Shown here piece after piece: positions 5,673 to 42,188 of a stretch of DNA of 64,000 nucleotides. Every line of letters starts with the position of its first letter. Within the stretch, counting starts at the first letter, position 1. Origin of the DNA: Eubacteriaceae bacterium (GTDB taxonomy: Bacteria > Bacillota > Clostridia > Peptostreptococcales > Anaerovoracaceae); contig JALCRY010000002.1 in assembly GCA_022652985.1 (NCBI GenBank), positions 1-64,000 of the forward strand, given 5' to 3'. The notes beneath the pieces are model-generated. The model ran no database searches. It had not been told where the DNA came from and saw only the letters and a program-made list of their open reading frames with translations. The position numbers were made by a program, and so were the translations under genes.

Positions 5673-7007
5673 TTATCTCTTGTTGGACCTCCTCCAGATC
5701 CTCTGTTCCTCAGCAGCTTTGATCAGTGCATCGCGGAATTCAGGATGCGCGATCGAAATGAGCTTCTCGGCTCTCTGCCATGAGGACATGCCTTCCATGT
5801 TCACTGCACCGTACTCTGTAGCGATATAGTAGACCTGGCTCCTCGGCGAGGTGATTATCTCGCCGCTGAAATGCGGAAGGATGTTGGAATGCAGTTTGCC
5901 TTCCTTGTCCTTGTATGTCGATGCCAGACAGATGAACGATTTTCCGTTGCGGGAAATCGATGCACCTTCCAGGAAATCGAGCTGACCGCCCGTTCCGCTT
6001 ATCTGACGCGTACCAGAACTTTCGGCATTGACCTGTCCGTAAAGGTCTACGGAAATGCAGCTGTTGATAGAAATCATATTGTCGATCGAGCCGATAACTC
6101 TCGGGTTATTTACATACTCGAGAGGGAAAGCCGCGATCATCGGGTTGTCATCCATCCATTCATACAGTTCCGGTGAACCTATCGTGATGCCCGTGACAGC
6201 CTTGCCCGGATTCACTGTCTTCCTTTTGTTCGTGAGCTTGCCCTTCTTATACAGATCAAGATATCCGTCTGAGCAAAGCTCGGTATGCATGCCCAGATCC
6301 TTGATATCGGAATCCGCGATAAGAGTTCCCAGCGTGTTCGGCATATTGCCGATACCCAGCTGCAGAGTTGCTCCGTCGATAATGAACGGAAGAATATTCT
6401 TTGCTATCGCCATGTCTACATCTGTCGGGTTTCCCTTCGGCATTGGCTTGAACGGTTCATGTTCGCCTTCAACAACGAAATCAACATCCGAAATATGTAT
6501 GCATTCGTCGTAGCCTCCGTGCAGCCGCGGAAGATGTTCATTGACTTCCAAAATAACGATGTCGGCTTTCCTGAGGATCTCGGCCGCGACGCCGGTTCCC
6601 AGAGAGAAATTGAAAAAGCCGTGTTTGTCCATAGGCGTAACGCTGGTCATAGCTACGTTAACGTCCAGGAAGAAATGGTAATATGCGGAATTATTGTGGA
6701 AAACCATCGGCATGAAATATGCCAGGCCCTTGTCGCACAATTTCCTTTCGTAACCGGAGCAGTGCCACGTATTGTACGTGAAATGCTCCTGGGCGGTATC
6801 CTGTTCAACGACCTCTATCGGTCCGTTGATCAGGTTGCCCCTGATTTTGACATCGTGCAGCTCCTCTGCACGCGCTGCCAGCGCTCTGTCGAGCAGTACA
6901 GGCTTGCTCATCGCCGTGGTGTAATCCACCCAGTCACCGTCTTTGATAACTTTGACGGCTTCTTCCGGCGTTCTGAGCTTCTGCTTATACTCCGAGATGA
7001 TGTCCAT
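5673..7007 (-). CDS. Acetyl-CoA hydrolase/transferase family CoA-transferase (butyryl-CoA:acetate or 4-hydroxybutyrate CoA-transferase-like)
   Basis: LQLGIGNMPN, MHTELCSDGYLDL, ESSGTRQISGTGGQLDF, ITSPRSQVYYIATEYGAVNMEG. Confidence 0.85.
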   Translation of the reverse strand: MDIISEYKQKLRTPEEAVKVIKDGDWVDYTTAMSKPVLLDRALAARAEELHDVKIRGNLINGPIEVVEQDTAQEHFTYNTWHCSGYERKLCDKGLAYFMPMVFHNNSAYYHFFLDVNVAMTSVTPMDKHGFFNFSLGTGVAAEILRKADIVILEVNEHLPRLHGGYDECIHISDVDFVVEGEHEPFKPMPKGNPTDVDMAIAKNILPFIIDGATLQLGIGNMPNTLGTLIADSDIKDLGMHTELCSDGYLDLYKKGKLTNKRKTVNPGKAVTGITIGSPELYEWMDDNPMIAAFPLEYVNNPRVIGSIDNMISINSCISVDLYGQVNAESSGTRQISGTGGQLDFLEGASISRNGKSFICLASTYKDKEGKLHSNILPHFSGEIITSPRSQVYYIATEYGAVNMEGMSSWQRAEKLISIAHPEFRDALIKAAEEQRIWRRSNKR

Positions 7008-7037: not shown

Positions 7038-7295
7038 TTATTTATACGATTCGCTGCAGTACTCGAAACTTCCACAGTTCGGACAATGCAGTTTCCTCGT
7101 TTTCGGCGTATGTTTAGCAAATGTCATTTCTTTGAGCGGCGGCGTGAATACTTCACCGCACTCAGGACAGATATAATCGACATGCTTGTGCATTTCATGC
7201 AGGATCGCTCCTGCAACAGTGAGTTCGCAGGCCAGGTCTATAAGACACAGCACTACTATTTTTTTCTTTAATTTTTTCTCAGCTTCGTCTTTCAT
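7038..7295 (-). CDS. Small zinc-ribbon membrane protein
   Basis: 85 aa with one TM and CPEC...CPNC. Confidence 0.5.
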   Translation of the reverse strand: MKDEAEKKLKKKIVVLCLIDLACELTVAGAILHEMHKHVDYICPECGEVFTPPLKEMTFAKHTPKTRKLHCPNCGSFEYCSESYK

Positions 7296-8356
7296 TATTG
7301 TTCCTCCTGTCCGGCAGTCTGCCTTATATCAAGAAGTTTGGTCTTGAGCTCGTCTTCCAGTCTGACCAGCTCTGTTTCGGCTTCCAGTCTCTTCTGATGA
7401 CCTTCATCCTGTATTCTGATCACTTCATCTATAGTTGAGATGAGCGATTCATTCGTATGTTTCAGCGTCTCCATGTCCACAATACCGCGCTCTGATTCTT
7501 TGGCCGTCTCTATCGTAGCCATCTTCAGGCTGTCGGCATTCCTCCTCAGCAGCTCGTTCGTCGCGTCAGACACCGTTCTCTGGGCCTCTGCAGCTTCCTG
7601 GGAATGCGCCACTCCGAGAGCTATCATCATCTGACTCTTCCAGAGCGGAAGCGTATTCACGAGCGTGGACTGTATCTTCTCTGACATCTCCGTATCATTC
7701 CCCTGCACCAGTCTCAGCTGCGGGGCCATCTGTATGGAGATCGTCCTTGTCAGTTCCAGATCGTGCAGTTTTTTCTCAAAGCGGTTGCACATGTTCGCCA
7801 GGTCGTTGGCCGCCTGCGCGTCTTCCGGAAGTCCGCTCTGCTGCGCCTTCTGCTGTAATGCCGGCAGTTCGACGGAGAGCGTATAGTCCAGTTTTTGCTT
7901 TCCCGCGGCGATATACATCGACAGTTCTTTGAAATACTGCTTGTTCAGATCATACAGCTTGTCCAGCGTAGCCACGTCCTTCATCAGAACGACCTGATGG
8001 CTTTCCAGCGCCTCCGCGATCTTGTTGACATTCACTTCGGCCTTCGCGTACTTTGCCTTCATGGCAGACACTTTATTTTCGCCTTTTTTAAATAAGCCTT
8101 TCAGGCCCTTCGCATCAGGCTCGCCGAATCCTCTCAGCTCTACCGTCAGGTCCGTCAGCAGACCGCCGACTTCTCCCATATCCTTGGTGCGCACTTTGTC
8201 GAGAGCGCTCTCGGAAAAATCAGCCATCTTCTTCTGCGCGCCCGAGCCGTACTGAAGAATGGCAGTCGGATTTGTCAGATCAACTTTCTGAGCGAATTCC
8301 GCTATCTGCCTCTCCTCTTCCGTGGTGAATTCTGTTACTTCGAGTCCGTCATTCAT
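7295..8356 (-). CDS. TelA/toxic anion resistance family protein
   Basis: YGSGAQKKMADFS start, long helical region, LPLWKSQMMIALG typical of TelA. Confidence 0.8.
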   Translation of the reverse strand: MNDGLEVTEFTTEEERQIAEFAQKVDLTNPTAILQYGSGAQKKMADFSESALDKVRTKDMGEVGGLLTDLTVELRGFGEPDAKGLKGLFKKGENKVSAMKAKYAKAEVNVNKIAEALESHQVVLMKDVATLDKLYDLNKQYFKELSMYIAAGKQKLDYTLSVELPALQQKAQQSGLPEDAQAANDLANMCNRFEKKLHDLELTRTISIQMAPQLRLVQGNDTEMSEKIQSTLVNTLPLWKSQMMIALGVAHSQEAAEAQRTVSDATNELLRRNADSLKMATIETAKESERGIVDMETLKHTNESLISTIDEVIRIQDEGHQKRLEAETELVRLEDELKTKLLDIRQTAGQEEQ

Positions 8357-8374
8357 TCCTTTTCCTCCGCTTCA

Positions 8375-9529
8375 TCACTTACTGATGCCGTCATCCGTCA
8401 GCCCGTCTCTTGCGAACATCGAATTCAGCACCGAAATATCAGTTGAAACATCCATTACTGTATCCTGATACAGCTCATCAAGCAGTTTGCCGAAAGCCGT
8501 TTCAATATTTCCCAGCGTCTGTTCTATCTCTTTTTTCGCCGCCGCCACATCTTCGCTCTGAACATTTTTCTTTTCAAAATCACTGTAGACATTCACTAGC
8601 TTGACAGTTGTCGGCAGATAATAATCCATGAATCTCCGTATATCCGGCAGCAGCGAAGGCTTCTCCTCGACTCTCTTGAATATCTTTGTGACGATATCCT
8701 CTATATCATCGAGATCCTGCATGACAGAAATATCGGTGATGCTACTTTTCGCGCTCCTGATAGTATCTATGCTCTCATGCCCCTTCTCGAGCACTTCCCT
8801 GAGCTTTCTCTGCTCCTCCGTCTCGTCCTCGCGGCGTCTGCTTTCCTCTGCTTCCTCTTTTGTCCTGTTCTTGAATCTGTCCCTCGCCTCCGCATACTGT
8901 TCGAAAGTATAATCGTTGCCGATGAACCACTTCCCGGTGTCATCTATATGGCCCTCGAGAAACATTTTCTTATCTATCATTTTTTTCAGATCTCTGCTGA
9001 CGGCTTCCGGTCTCCGGCCTGCTTTGGCGGCAAGATCGCTGATTTTGTAAAATTCGGTGCCCTTCATGATCCTTAGATAATTTTTGAACCTTTTTATCCT
9101 GTCGCGGATTTTATTTCCCGCCAGAATACAGCATACGCCTGCGCCCGAGATCCCGGCGAGCAGCAGCGTCACGGCCGCCCCGCCGAAAAAGATAAGAGAA
9201 GATACCGCAGTAATGCCGAACCCTATGGTCCCGCATATGCCTGCTGCGATCATCCCGATGCCGCTGAACGTACCTGCGGGTCTTCTGCTGACAGGGATAG
9301 TCAGAGAAGTATTATCTCTTCCGCTGCGCTTTGAACTTCCGTCCAGATCATTGAAATCAAATGTATCCGGCCTGTCTCCGGACAGCCTGATATCATCCAT
9401 GGACGGTCCGCCGAAAACTGCTTTTTTCACAGTTGAATCGATATCGCGGCTCAGCCTTCCGAAGTCCATTGACCTGACGGCATCATCTATTATTCTGTTT
9501 ATGTCATTGCCAAAATTATTCATACTCAT
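8375..9529 (-). CDS. XpaC-like (5-bromo-4-chloroindolyl phosphate hydrolysis) family protein
   Basis: Two TMs, C-terminal DIRRFMDYYLPTTVKLVNVYSDFE; usual partner of TelA. Confidence 0.7.
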   Translation of the reverse strand: MSMNNFGNDINRIIDDAVRSMDFGRLSRDIDSTVKKAVFGGPSMDDIRLSGDRPDTFDFNDLDGSSKRSGRDNTSLTIPVSRRPAGTFSGIGMIAAGICGTIGFGITAVSSLIFFGGAAVTLLLAGISGAGVCCILAGNKIRDRIKRFKNYLRIMKGTEFYKISDLAAKAGRRPEAVSRDLKKMIDKKMFLEGHIDDTGKWFIGNDYTFEQYAEARDRFKNRTKEEAEESRRREDETEEQRKLREVLEKGHESIDTIRSAKSSITDISVMQDLDDIEDIVTKIFKRVEEKPSLLPDIRRFMDYYLPTTVKLVNVYSDFEKKNVQSEDVAAAKKEIEQTLGNIETAFGKLLDELYQDTVMDVSTDISVLNSMFARDGLTDDGISK

Positions 9530-9553: not shown

Positions 9554-9583
9554 GGCCGCGCGGTCTATCCCGCGCGGCCAAAT
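9554..9583 (-). terminator. Intrinsic terminator separating the RLP operon from xpaC/telA
   Basis: GGCCGCGCGGtctatCCCGCGCGGCC stem; minus strand continues TTGTTTG. Confidence 0.6.
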
Positions 9584-9595
9584 ATGTCAGGTCTG

Positions 9596-10249
9596 TTATT
9601 CTGCGTCTGCATCGTCGAACAGCTGATCAAGATACCCGTTTATGTCGAAAAAGTCGCCCCACATATAGAACTTCATTCCTTCATGAGCAAGGTGTCTCGC
9701 CAGATCATCGCGGGCAAAGCAGATGTCAGAGCCCATCGCCATAGCGACATCGGTTATCCCGTCGCCGATCGCTATCGCACTGTCATAATCGTATTGACGC
9801 ATCACATTGTCTTTGCGCATGAGATAGCCGTCTCCCTCGTCCGGAGGCATGAGTTTCATGAATCCTGCCGAGGTATCGACTCCCACGCAGTGCACTGCCA
9901 GGAAACGGTCAAAACGATCGCCGAGTATTTCTTTCACGAACGGCTCGAGCCCTCCTGAAAGAAGCACTACCGGTATACCTTTTCTGTCCGTCAGGTCGAG
10001 GAACTCATCGAACCCCTCGCGCAGAGGAACAGAGCGGTAATATTCCAGCATAGGTCCGATCGAATCCGCAGGCATGCTGTCAAATGCCATATGAAGGACT
10101 TCGTTAAGCTTCAGCTTGCCCGCTTTCATGTCGCTGTTGACCTGTATCATCTGCTCCTGCGGGATCACTCTCATAAGCGCTCCGCTGAGCGTTTCTTCCG
10201 ATGTGACTGTCCCGTCGAAGTCAAGAAATATTATGCTTTCGTATTTCAA
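9596..10249 (-). CDS. HAD-superfamily phosphatase, MtnX/phosphoserine phosphatase-like
   Basis: IFLDFDGTVTSEET (motif I), LLSGGLEPF (motif II), AIGDGITDVAMA (motif III). Confidence 0.75.
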   Translation of the reverse strand: MKYESIIFLDFDGTVTSEETLSGALMRVIPQEQMIQVNSDMKAGKLKLNEVLHMAFDSMPADSIGPMLEYYRSVPLREGFDEFLDLTDRKGIPVVLLSGGLEPFVKEILGDRFDRFLAVHCVGVDTSAGFMKLMPPDEGDGYLMRKDNVMRQYDYDSAIAIGDGITDVAMAMGSDICFARDDLARHLAHEGMKFYMWGDFFDINGYLDQLFDDADAE

Positions 10250-10263
10250 CTGTGCCGCCTTTC

Positions 10264-11577
10264 CTATTTCATCAGATCGAATGAAACATCCGCTCCGAGC
10301 AGCTGAGCCATCTGTGCCAGTTCCTTATGCGTCTTCGCGTATTCCATAACCGGAACACCTTCCATAGCCGCATCGATAGCCTGTCTCATCGACTTCGCGC
10401 CCGCTTCGCTCCCTGCCGGATGACCGTGGATAGCACCGCCTGCAGCCAGAACGATATCTGTGCCGAGGGCCTTGATAGCCTTGTCGACCATCATCTGGTT
10501 CGTGCCGCCGGACACCAGGTAAAGCATAGGCTTTATGTTCCACCAAGGCTGAGTGAAGAACCTGAAGCATCTTGCCAGAGACTTCATCGGGAACGGGAAC
10601 TTGCCCCAAGGATGTCCGTTTATCTGCATGTCGCCGCCGGCGAGTCTGACGAATTTTCCTATTGTCAGCGGTGCACTCAGACCTGTATATGTAGCTCCGC
10701 AGAATACTCCCGCGAAATCGATATGCGCCAGGATAGGAACATCGATATTAGGGTCTTCCGACAGCATCTGCAGTGTGCCGAATCCCGAAGTGTATGTATT
10801 GATCATCAGGCAGTTGGCACCGTACTCGATAGCGCGGTATGCATTGTCTCTGACTTTGTCGATCCTGTCTGTGATATTCGTCGCGTAAAGAGTATGCTCT
10901 CCGGTCTCTTCGAATACCTGCTTTTCCTTCTGCATGAACAGCGTTACTCTGTCCTTCTGCGGGCAGAAATCTTCGTTGCACGGCATGAGTTCATCGTCCT
11001 TGATGATGTCTACGCCGCCCTTTGAAGCCTGATAGAACAGATCCGCGCCCTCTTCAGGAGTCCAGCCTGTGTTAGGTTTGATCATCGCATTGACCAGCGG
11101 TCTGTCATGCACGCCGAGTCTGTCTCTGATGCCTTCTACGCCGAATTTAGGTCCGGTGAACTGCTCTACATATTTTTTCGGGAAAGCGCAGTCTATCATC
11201 TTGATCGGGCCGCTGGCCGAAATGTTGCCGAACAGTGTAGAAAGGATCATCGGGAAGCTCGTTCCCATATTTCTCATAGGATAAGCGATCTGAATGATAT
11301 GCATCGGCGGTGCCGGCGGCTGTACCATATCGTTGCCCATATCAGGCAGTTCATATATAGCTACGACCTTGGCTCCGAATATCTTTTTCTTATCATCAGT
11401 CTCGTGAGAAACCTTTATCCAGGTCCCCGTCGTCTGCTCGTCGGCAATAGCCATGGCGAGTTTTTCGATATCGCTTGTCGGCACATTGCACTGATATGTA
11501 GCAATAATATAGTCATCATCGAATGCTACTTCCGGAAATGCGTACGACATATTGATGTCATCTAACTGTTTGATCAT
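10264..11577 (-). CDS. RuBisCO-like protein (form IV RLP)
   Basis: EQTTGTW, FGNISA, AMIKPNTGW, GGVDIIKDDELM, VSGGTNQ, GGAIHGHPAG align with RuBisCO large-subunit motifs; several carboxylase residues are absent. Confidence 0.9.
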   Translation of the reverse strand: MIKQLDDINMSYAFPEVAFDDDYIIATYQCNVPTSDIEKLAMAIADEQTTGTWIKVSHETDDKKKIFGAKVVAIYELPDMGNDMVQPPAPPMHIIQIAYPMRNMGTSFPMILSTLFGNISASGPIKMIDCAFPKKYVEQFTGPKFGVEGIRDRLGVHDRPLVNAMIKPNTGWTPEEGADLFYQASKGGVDIIKDDELMPCNEDFCPQKDRVTLFMQKEKQVFEETGEHTLYATNITDRIDKVRDNAYRAIEYGANCLMINTYTSGFGTLQMLSEDPNIDVPILAHIDFAGVFCGATYTGLSAPLTIGKFVRLAGGDMQINGHPWGKFPFPMKSLARCFRFFTQPWWNIKPMLYLVSGGTNQMMVDKAIKALGTDIVLAAGGAIHGHPAGSEAGAKSMRQAIDAAMEGVPVMEYAKTHKELAQMAQLLGADVSFDLMK

Positions 11578-11628
11578 ATTGTTTCCTCCTTGAAAATCTT
11601 GATGTAAAAGAGTTGGTTTTCATTTATT

Positions 11629-12885
11629 TCAGTCCACGACTTTACCAAATTTTACTTCTTTGGCCATGAACATCATTACAAGTGCTATACCGGTACAGGC
11701 GACCAGTATCCAGAACAGTGCCGTATAGTTTCCTCCGAGAAGCGATGCTCCTCCGACGAAAAGCGCCCCGGCAACATTGCCTGCCCAAAGCAGAAGCCCC
11801 TCAGACGTGCCCTCGCTCGTAGGATAACAGGATTCAGCAGCCAGCGTCAGAAGCACAGGCGCGCTTCCTATCGTGAAGAAACCGTATATCACGGATGCCG
11901 CCAGCATCCCGCCGAAACCGTTCAGAACGGTGAACAGCAGAAGTCCTATCGCACCCAGGATATTGGCGCCCAGTATGTATCTCAGTCTGCGTCTCTCCTT
12001 GTCTTTGTCGGAAAGCATCGATATCACGAGACTTCCCACAGTGCCGACCGCCAGTATTACTACGCCTATTATGCCGACGTGTGTTGAATCTATGCCTTTG
12101 CCGCCCAGTGTCTGCACAAGAGCTTCGATGTCCGTGAAGAACGTGTTGAATACTCCCAGCATCGCAAAGAAGATAAACAGGCAGAGGATAAAGTTTCTCT
12201 GTTTGAATGCATTTTTCATGCCCGGGCCGAAGTCCGAACGTTCAGCTTCTTTTTCTTCGCACGGCGGTGTGGCCGGTTTATCTTTCACCAGAACGATGAA
12301 CAGTACCGCACCGATTATCGATATCCAGCCGTAAAGCATCAGGATCCCCTTGATGCTCATCGAGGACATCAGCAGAGGCGTCACCAGCAGTCCGGCGCAC
12401 ATGCCGACATATCCCGCAAGGAGCGCAACGCTGTTCGCGGTAGCTCTCTCGTTCTCAGGGAACCATCTTCCTGCGACCAGTCCCGGTGAATTGAGTATGA
12501 ACGGCTGCGCCAGCGAGAAGCCCACGGTAGCCGCGATGAGTCCGCCGAACGATCCTCCGAGGATGCCGCGCATTATCGCGCTGAGAGCCATGAGGATGCA
12601 GCCGAAGCTCACCGATTTCTTGAAGCCCCACTTTTCGAACGCCCACATGACCGGTACTGAAAGTATCACCATCCCGACCATGAAGATCACCGACAGCATG
12701 CTTATCGCGCTGTTGCCTTTGACCGCATCTGTAAAACCGTAGTAATGCCAGGCATCGGTAGTAATTGAAAAGAAAGTAGTTCACATTATCTGTATGAGTA
12801 CGCAATTCAGCGCGTAGACCGCCAGAACCACCCATCTGTACCCGTATACCTTGTAATTAGAGCCGCCATTGCCGGAGCCATCCAT
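11629..12885 (-). pseudogene. MFS transporter (oxalate/formate antiporter-like) interrupted by an in-frame TGA
   Basis: ATG at 12885 gives MDGSGNGGSNYKVYGYRWVVLAVYALNCVLIQIM, TGA at 12783..12781, then TTFFSITTDAWHYYGF... continues in the same frame into the 356-aa ORF. Confidence 0.75.
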
Positions 12886-12945
12886 CAATATCACCCTCAT
12901 TCTGAAAATATCGTAAAAATTTTCTGAATCTTTGTTATGAGTTAA

Positions 12946-12974
12946 ATTATACCTTTATCTAATTTTAGTGTCAA
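12946..12974 (-). promoter_or_regulatory. Consensus sigma-A promoter for MFS-RLP-HAD operon
   Basis: Minus strand TTGACA-N17-TATAAT, both hexamers perfect. Confidence 0.85.
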
Positions 12975-12988
12975 GTATAGAAAATCCC

Positions 12989-13017
12989 TTGAAAAAAGTA
13001 TACTTTGGTTGTAATAT
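12989..13017 (+). promoter_or_regulatory. TetR gene promoter with palindromic operator in the spacer
   Basis: TTGAAA-N17-TAATAT; perfect palindrome AAAGTATACTTT at 12995..13006 lies inside the spacer. Confidence 0.75.
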
Positions 13018-13058
13018 AGAATAGTAATCTAAAAACTGCAGTACCCGAGAGGTGAATT

Positions 13059-13655
13059 ATGGTCACTACCAGAAGAGAATCCAACAAAATCAAGTGCAGA
13101 CAGCGCATCCTGAAAGCTTCGCGCCGCCTGTTCAATTCAAAGGGATATGAGGGGACGATGATTGAAGATATCGCCGAAAAGGCCGATATCTCAAAAGCAA
13201 CTTTTTACAATTACTTTCCGAACAAAGAAAGTCTGCTGCTGGGGACAGCAGAAGATGAACTGGCAATAATACAGGAACTGCTTGAGAACGAACTCAAAGA
13301 CGAACTGAACAGCGACAAAAAACTCCGCGCGGTCATCGAATTTCTCGTTCTTGACGGCCTGCCGTTCATCAATCTTTCGCGCAGGCTCACATACCTGAAC
13401 TCCTGCAAGGACAGTCCGGTATACAAGGTGCGTCTCGGCATCATCAGCATTTTCAAACAGCTGATCGGAGAAGCCATGCAGCAGGGCAGATACAAAGAAG
13501 GCCTTACCGTCGACGAGATCGAAGATGTCTACATGAGCGTCTATCTCGTGACGCAGTTCGAATGGACTCACATCAGCAGCTACTCAGAAGAATTCTGCAA
13601 GGAAAAGCTCAACAAGCTGATGGATACTGTTCTCGCCGGTGTTTACGCCGACTGA
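13059..13655 (+). CDS. TetR/AcrR-family transcriptional regulator
   Basis: N-terminal HTH: IEDIAEKADISKATFYNYFPNKESLL. Confidence 0.9.
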   Translation: MVTTRRESNKIKCRQRILKASRRLFNSKGYEGTMIEDIAEKADISKATFYNYFPNKESLLLGTAEDELAIIQELLENELKDELNSDKKLRAVIEFLVLDGLPFINLSRRLTYLNSCKDSPVYKVRLGIISIFKQLIGEAMQQGRYKEGLTVDEIEDVYMSVYLVTQFEWTHISSYSEEFCKEKLNKLMDTVLAGVYAD

Positions 13656-40934: not shown

Positions 40935-42059
40935 TTATACTTCTATTCCCGATCTGATTGCCTCTCTCAGCCCTCCGAAAATGCCGAAATTGGAACGTTC
41001 CTTGATCAGCCTCAGTCCCTGCTGATACGGCGGCTTCACAATGCCGCGTTCGGTTATTACTGCAGTAATAAGAGTATGCGGTGTGACGTCGAATGACGGG
41101 TTGTACGTTTTCACGCCTTCCGGCGCCATCGGTTTTTCGTACCACATCTTATATATCTCTTCGCCGTCCCGCTCTTCGATCACGATATCCCTGCCTGTTT
41201 TTGTACGGAGATCTATCGTCGAGCACGGGACAAACATGTAGAACGGTATTTCATAATAATTGGCCAGCACCGCGACCGCGCTCGTGCCGATCTTGTTCGC
41301 TCCGTCGCCGTTGGCCGCCATCCTGTCGCAGCCCACGACGACTGCGTCGATTTTGCGCTGCTGCATGAGTGTCGAGGCCATATTGTCGCAGATGAGAGTA
41401 ACATCCACACCGGCTTTCTGCAGTTCCCATGCCGTCAGCCGGGCTCCCTGAAGCAGCGGTCTGGTTTCGTCAGCGTAGACATGGAAGTCGTACCCCTTTT
41501 CATTGCCGAGATATATCGGTGCCAGACAGGTGCCGTACATGGCAGTGGCCAGACTGCCCGCATTGCAGTGCGTCAGTATGCTCATGCCCGGTTTGAGAAG
41601 TGTCAGGCCGTGCTCGCCCATCGAACGGCACGCGGCAATGTCATCTTCTCTTATTCTGACAGCTTCTTCTCTGAGCTTTGCCAGTACATATTCCACTTTT
41701 CCGGATTCGCTCCCCGCTGCCTCCTGCGCGGCGCTCTCCAGACATTTCTCCATCTTATTAAGCGCCCAGGCAAGATTGACCGCAGTCGGCCTGGCTGAAC
41801 CGATGATTTTTTTCTTTTTCGCGAATTCATCGAAAAGGTCAGCCATGGTCCCGATTGCCGCCGTACGCATGCAGGCGTAAATCCCGATCGCCGCCGCAAC
41901 ACCAATAGCCGGGGCTCCTCTGACCCTCAGACTTCTGATCGCCTCGCAGACATCTTCGGCTTTATCGAGTTCGAGATAATGTTCCTCCCCCGGAAGCAGC
42001 GTCTGATCAAGTATAATTAATTTATCATTGCCCATCATCACGGGCTCAATGAACGTCAT
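40935..42059 (-). CDS. mtnA: S-methyl-5-thioribose-1-phosphate isomerase
   Basis: RSLRVRGAPAIGVAAAIGIY, ILTHCNAGSLATA, TLICDNMASTLM, GCDRMAANGDGANKIGT; GAGGAG RBS. Confidence 0.9.
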   Translation of the reverse strand: MTFIEPVMMGNDKLIILDQTLLPGEEHYLELDKAEDVCEAIRSLRVRGAPAIGVAAAIGIYACMRTAAIGTMADLFDEFAKKKKIIGSARPTAVNLAWALNKMEKCLESAAQEAAGSESGKVEYVLAKLREEAVRIREDDIAACRSMGEHGLTLLKPGMSILTHCNAGSLATAMYGTCLAPIYLGNEKGYDFHVYADETRPLLQGARLTAWELQKAGVDVTLICDNMASTLMQQRKIDAVVVGCDRMAANGDGANKIGTSAVAVLANYYEIPFYMFVPCSTIDLRTKTGRDIVIEERDGEEIYKMWYEKPMAPEGVKTYNPSFDVTPHTLITAVITERGIVKPPYQQGLRLIKERSNFGIFGGLREAIRSGIEV

Positions 42060-42188
42060 ATCCAGCTCCTCTTTCATACAATAAGATAAGGAAATTATAT
42101 CACTGCCGGGCAATACGGGCAATTGACACTTGCCGCGGCCGTATGCTACAATTTTCTGAGCACCCGGGAATGGCACAGAAAGGAAAAC

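Follow-up and report, generated by a model that had tools for sequence, protein, structure and literature searches.

A RuBisCO-like protein gene in a reduced copy of a conserved clostridial operon, with a possible role in amino- or keto-sugar breakdown

RuBisCO-like proteins (RLPs) with a known reaction are few, their full range has been stated to be unknown, and most of them are thought to be isomerases or epimerases (PMC7325909). Here we consider an RLP gene found, with genes for an MFS transporter, a HAD phosphatase and a divergent TetR-family regulator, in the first 64,000 nucleotides of contig JALCRY010000002.1 from a Eubacteriaceae bacterium (hereafter, the window). Its closest described counterparts are the MtnW/MtnX pair of methionine salvage in Bacillus, OiaX together with the acid-sugar RLPs, and the DeepYkr RLP of Rhodospirillum and Rhodopseudomonas. 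In the case of the latter, the 1,3-isomerisation of 5-methylthioribulose 1-phosphate (MTRu-1-P) has been established, and this intermediate is known to have two fates, a class II aldolase or the RLP isomerase (PMC5893883).

The window operon is a reduced copy of a conserved operon whose core encodes an FGGY kinase, an aminotransferase, an RLP and a HAD phosphatase. As to its function, the genes suggest a TetR-controlled catabolic operon of anaerobic Clostridia, in which the RLP would enolise or isomerise a monophosphorylated keto-sugar or keto-acid; we see the chances of this reading as about even.

The conserved operon and its reduced copy

Relatives of the window RLP were sought in 84,980 species genomes, their neighbourhoods being re-read by tblastn and the families assigned with Pfam and NCBIfam models. 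They are encoded at 20 loci, which include Anaerovorax odorimutans, Anaerovorax sp. IOR16, Sinanaerobacter chloroacetimidivorans, Mobilibacterium timonense and Emergencia timonensis, as well as Oscillospiraceae metagenome-assembled genomes (MAGs) and one Spirochaetes MAG. In 15 of the 18 loci with upstream sequence, the gene immediately 5′ of the RLP gene encodes a class III (HemL-like) aminotransferase, and 14 of these 15 also carry the FGGY kinase, which is present too at L017, a locus whose upstream part is cut off. The HAD gene follows the RLP gene immediately at 19 loci, TetR is found at 17 and the MFS transporter at nine, about half. The core genes are typically arranged as TetR (divergent)–FGGY–(MFS)–aminotransferase–RLP–HAD, with an additional class II aldolase gene at L016 and L017. 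Loci with no aminotransferase before the RLP are those of the window, of its sister genome (G001; locus L004/L077) and L012.

An earlier note on this DNA had regarded the MFS, RLP and HAD genes as a self-contained set. This has to be abandoned, as the operon of the relatives has two more enzyme genes, for the aminotransferase and the kinase, which rules out a complete three-gene pathway. The conserved neighbourhood that the note proposed to look for does exist, although the MFS gene belongs to only part of it and two genes have to be added. Similarly, its inducible pathway of import, RLP action and dephosphorylation retains an operon with an importer and a phosphatase, but not the completeness of the three genes; for the phosphorylation that it had to postulate, the FGGY kinase of the relatives provides an explanation.

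Aminotransferase and RLP co-occur above chance, in four of 13 genomes with the aminotransferase (one-sided Fisher p = 0.0017; 391 genomes of the class, relatedness uncorrected). The distribution of RLPs is otherwise patchy: when 25 genomes of the family, including the host, were searched, four had any RLP. The aminotransferase of the relatives scores 308 bits with the HemL model (cut-off 398). Where HemL has the motif VNSPVRAF, whose Arg we take to be carboxylate-binding, it has VQHNL-AF, with no Arg in that place.

A gene for a CYTH/CyaB-like protein (class IV adenylate cyclase or triphosphatase) repeatedly adjoins the operon and sometimes lies inside it (L004-L006, L009, L014-L020). The Spirochaetes MAG (L011) has the full TetR-FGGY-MFS-aminotransferase-RLP-HAD operon, nested in the clostridial clade, which reflects either horizontal transfer or misbinning.

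The MFS gene had been given in the earlier note as a complete frame. Its start fits the family, but a TGA interrupts it at codon 35 and the uninterrupted reading frame covers only 12699..11629, so that the gene is broken in the present assembly. This codon is Trp in the six relatives shown (MWTTFF or LWATFF), among them the sister genome, in which the gene is intact (nonsynonymous divergence, dN, 0.19; synonymous divergence, dS, 1.97). Because protein similarity persists upstream of the TGA, we consider that the stop either arose by nonsense mutation very recently or is an error in the assembly of the MAG. Use of TGA as a sense codon was discarded, as the TetR gene ends in TGA and the change from Trp to stop was seen once only.

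As both genomes of the genus also lack the kinase and aminotransferase genes in this operon, the stop codon might be taken as a sign that the operon is decaying in the window lineage, with two enzymes lost, the importer broken and the other genes functionless. We judge this to be highly improbable. The RLP, HAD and TetR genes, the promoter and the terminator are all intact, the MFS gene of the sister genome is undamaged, and the RLP differs from that of the sister genome by a dN of 0.06 at a dS of 1.1, which reveals strong purifying selection. Decay would be conceivable for the importer, but it does not fit so constrained an RLP.

The RLP and its phosphatase compared with described types

The coordinates and Pfam matches of the RLP, HAD and TetR genes agree with their earlier placement. 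Both RuBisCO large-chain models, for the N and C domains (PF00016, PF02788), match the RLP above cut-off, while the form III RuBisCO model gives 258 bits, below its cut-off of 497. K167, K193, D195, E196, H285 and K326 are conserved, and the invariant K193, D195 and E196 match the carbamylated Lys201/Asp203/Glu204 metal site of the RuBisCO superfamily. According to the alignment, the RLP keeps equivalents of Glu60, Thr65, Trp66, Asn123, Lys175, Lys201, Asp203, Glu204, His294, Lys334, Ser379, Gly380, Gly381, Gly403 and Gly404, and at the second phosphate site Arg295 and His327 are replaced by Ile286 and Ile319 (the equivalents of H294, R295, H298, H327 and S328 were read straight from the alignment blocks). 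If these residues have the roles that we attribute to them, the RLP has presumably kept its metal site and first phosphate site, the second being weakened; as a consequence, the substrate is likely a monophosphate.

In two trees the window RLP and its relatives form a clade of their own (100/100 support). MtnW, OiaX with the acid-sugar RLPs, form III RuBisCO and the C. tepidum Photo RLP all fall elsewhere. Placement against the form IV clades, as the earlier note had proposed, thus gives no grouping with MtnW, which appears as one derived branch within a large Firmicute RLP group. In the larger tree, the sister of the window clade is the type of RLP encoded on contig C15 of the host (see below).

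The resemblance to MtnW and MtnX is nonetheless considerable, as these also combine an adjacent RLP and HAD-IB phosphatase with one retained phosphate site, and among the best matches to solved structures are MtnW-type RLPs for the RLP and MtnX for the HAD protein. Additionally, the window contains an orphan mtnA of the host (40935-42176, minus strand; 418 bits, cut-off 279), beside which other methionine-salvage genes were not recognised. It could then be imagined that the RLP acts after MtnA in the salvage of methylthio- or 5-deoxy-sugars, either as an enolase of 2,3-diketo-5-methylthiopentyl 1-phosphate or as an MTRu-1-P isomerase. Several results make this quite unlikely. With the MtnW family models the RLP stays under the cut-offs (286.7 bits vs 513.6; 334.6 vs 409), and so, by far, does the HAD protein with those of MtnX (84.3 vs 303.2; PRK09552, 92.3 vs 292). 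The latter does belong to the HAD-IB subfamily (TIGR01488, 55 bits, cut-off 45), and its motif residues D10, D12, S98, K146, D163 and D167 are invariant across 14 homologues. Lys98, which we assume to be the general base of MtnW, aligns with Asn118 of the RLP, an Asn in all 14 homologues; conversely, the window RLP has equivalents of Glu60 and Lys334 that are absent in MtnW. Moreover, mtnA was not found in seven of the 21 genomes searched, and all seven are genomes with the core RLP, several of them incomplete MAGs.

The host genome (82% complete) has no match to the acireductone dioxygenase (ARD) model PF03079 (mtnD). The absence of ARD, the Asn in place of Lys98 and the separate clade constitute a strong argument against classic aerobic methionine salvage, which we reject, and the mismatch with the classic mtn cluster seen in the earlier note is borne out. 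Unlike Bacillus methionine salvage, the system lacks mtnB and ARD, and its full form has the FGGY kinase and the aminotransferase instead.

With the DeepYkr system it would share the type of reaction, a carbonyl shift on a sugar monophosphate. It differs in the source of the substrate and in having no cupin partner: none was found among the annotated genes beside the window RLP or the conserved operon genes of the relatives, the flanking reading frames being annotated in part.

Another possibility is suggested by OiaX and the acid-sugar RLPs, which likewise lie beside a sugar-type kinase in operons of catabolic appearance. In this scheme the aminotransferase would produce a 3-oxo acid from a beta-amino sugar acid, the FGGY kinase would phosphorylate it, the RLP would decarboxylate the product and the HAD protein would remove the phosphate. 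In fact, proteobacterial and haloarchaeal RLPs adjoin a four-carbon acid sugar kinase (five without a named function and one annotated OiaX), the HemL-like relatives of the aminotransferase include a beta-amino acid aminotransferase (4ao9), and the importer is closest, if weakly, to organic-anion MFS carriers. The class II aldolase that occupies the place of the RLP in related operons also belongs to a family that, according to its model, includes 3-oxo-tetronate-4-phosphate decarboxylases. However, the RLP does not fall into the clade of OiaX and the acid-sugar RLPs, and it gives 190.8 bits with the OiaX model, whose cut-off is 700; it has residues of the Trp66/Asn123 type where OiaX has Phe/Gly, and it lacks the Arg that follows His294 in OiaX. 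The kinases are of different families, FGGY and four-carbon acid sugar, and the window type adds an aminotransferase and a phosphatase. We consider a decarboxylase unlikely, though less so than an enzyme of methylthio-sugar salvage.

A possible pathway

In the pathway that we favour, based on enolisation or isomerisation by the RLP, a small amino-polyol or amino-acid-like substrate would be imported, the aminotransferase would convert its amine to a ketone and the FGGY kinase would phosphorylate a hydroxyl, both enzymes together yielding a keto-sugar or keto-acid with one phosphate. Next, the RLP, which has the carbamylated-Lys/Mg site and Lys175/Lys334 but a single RuBisCO-type phosphate site, would shift the carbonyl by enolisation, and the HAD protein would strip the phosphate, making the step irreversible. 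With genes for a sugar kinase and an aminotransferase in its full form in the relatives, the operon probably serves to break down an amino- or keto-sugar and not to recycle methionine.

In the genus of the window, the ketone- and phosphate-making steps could be supplied from elsewhere in the genome, or the substrate might require neither. The host genome (2.33 Mb in 70 contigs, of which the window belongs to C2) has, on contig C13 and behind a housekeeping set (IF-2, TruB, RibF), an operon for an aminotransferase, a class II aldolase and an FGGY kinase, which the sister genome carries as well and which may serve the window pathway. The operator pattern of the window (see below) has no match on C13, and hence there is no support for a joint regulation of both loci.

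Such aminotransferase–FGGY operons are widespread (L092-L101, L064, L112 on a Butyrivibrio plasmid and L113 on a Burkholderia ambifaria plasmid), usually with a class II aldolase and often with TetR and an MdlD-like aldehyde dehydrogenase. Their aminotransferase and kinase are homologous to those of the RLP operon, but the aldolase, often with the dehydrogenase, replaces RLP and HAD, and the aminotransferase is a separate subtype (about 54-58% identical). A conversion of R-CHOH-CH(NH2)-CH2OH to dihydroxyacetone phosphate and an aldehyde would fit their chemistry. The same alternation of aldolase and RLP is seen in the two fates of MTRu-1-P (PMC5893883), which supports the shape of the pathway.

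Further support for this general shape comes from other RLP branches, which repeat the scheme with non-homologous parts. At L146, L150 and L154, a phosphotransferase system (PTS) and a Zn-dehydrogenase or 2-hydroxyacid dehydrogenase accompany the RLP and a class II aldolase, and at L066 the RLP occurs with a Zn-dehydrogenase and a HAD-IIB protein. In the operon of L138-L144, L147 and L148, it is found with a PEP-hydrolase-like TIM barrel (PF09370), a ComB-like phosphatase and UPF0261, often also with a second PF09370 protein. The phosphatases differ by branch and are unrelated: HAD-IB in the window, PHP on C15, HAD-IIB at L066 and ComB-like at L138 and its relatives. What the branches have in common is a means of phosphorylation (PTS or FGGY), a dehydrogenase or aminotransferase that would make the ketone, an RLP, and a phosphatase or class II aldolase. 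The linkage to an aminotransferase or FGGY kinase also recurs beyond the core clade (L068, L071, L072), which again favours the general shape. The L138-type operon, in addition, ties the RLP to Tm-1-like proteins.

The host has three RLPs, that of the window and two more: that of C25 (L024) adjoins a fructose-type PTS and PtsI, and that of C15 (L025) lies beside a PTS of the galactitol type, PtsI, a 2-hydroxyacid dehydrogenase and a PHP-domain protein. GC content and tetranucleotides of both contigs are somewhat unlike those of the window, and they may represent contamination or a binning error; the window operon is unaffected, because it recurs in the sister genome.

Several points weigh against enolisation or isomerisation as proposed. 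Neither genome of the genus has the aminotransferase and kinase genes within the operon, the present assembly shows a broken MFS gene, and the C13 aminotransferase belongs to a second subtype, about 54% identical, that also occurs in genomes without an RLP. Kinases of other families accompany acid-sugar RLPs, so a neighbouring kinase cannot tell an isomerase from a decarboxylase. The active-site assignment comes from a sequence alignment, and substrate and reaction are deduced from the genes. With a little less confidence, we propose a so far undescribed anaerobic pathway for an amino-polyol or amino-sugar acid, made up of aminotransferase, FGGY kinase, RLP and HAD, in which the RLP would have a new reaction; a single catabolic module could then end interchangeably in an RLP with its phosphatase or in a class II aldolase.

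The protein family was known already. In the open literature, which leaves out most subscription journals, a search on the aminotransferase/FGGY/RLP/HAD gene set gave nothing relevant, and the clade, the operon type and the possible reaction were not found described. As the kinase–aminotransferase–RLP–phosphatase operon is fixed in cultured anaerobes (Anaerovorax, Sinanaerobacter, Emergencia, Mobilibacterium), the reaction can be tested directly. Several more Firmicute RLP branches have their own conserved operons, MtnW being merely one of the derived branches.

Promoter, candidate operator and neighbouring genes

The strong shared promoter and the GC-rich terminal hairpin proposed for the operon were both recovered (Table 1); the fold of the latter has z = -4.96, and none of 200 shuffles was equally stable. 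TetR keeps its position in the sister genome, where it is 87% identical. The palindrome AAATTAGATAAAGGTATAATTT is a candidate TetR operator. A sequence like its pattern, AAATTAgACTyrAGTATAATTT, lies over the spacer and -10 in the promoter region of most relatives compared, clearly in Anaerovorax sp. IOR16, Sinanaerobacter and the sister genome and more weakly in the others, and the only exact match in the host genome is the window copy. An 11-nt inverted repeat at 12899-12929 was set aside, as the palindrome scan of the sister-genome promoter region did not show it.

Table 1. Features of the RLP operon in the window
Feature	Position	Strand	Remarks
TetR-family regulator gene, divergent	13059..13655	+	PF00440 3.1e-17
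Sigma-70 promoter TTGACA-17-TATAAT	12974..12946	-	12/12 consensus match
Candidate TetR operator	12944..12965	-	imperfect palindrome spanning spacer and -10
MFS transporter gene (ACS/galactonate-like, weak)	12885..11629	-	PF07690 2.2e-32; broken at codon 35
In-frame TGA in MFS gene, at conserved Trp codon	12783..12781	-	
RLP gene	11577..10264	-	437 aa; PF00016 E=5.7e-49, PF02788 7.8e-11
HAD-IB phosphatase gene, MtnX-like	10249..9596	-	TTG start, 217 aa; PF12710 7.2e-13
Intrinsic terminator hairpin	9579..9554	-	10 GC pairs, then T-rich tail

Just past the operon terminator there are a CoA-transferase gene and a TelA/PF10112 gene pair (5673-7007 and 7295-9529, minus strand). The CoA-transferase is close to butyryl-CoA:acetate CoA-transferase, with 544 bits under a cut-off of 675.

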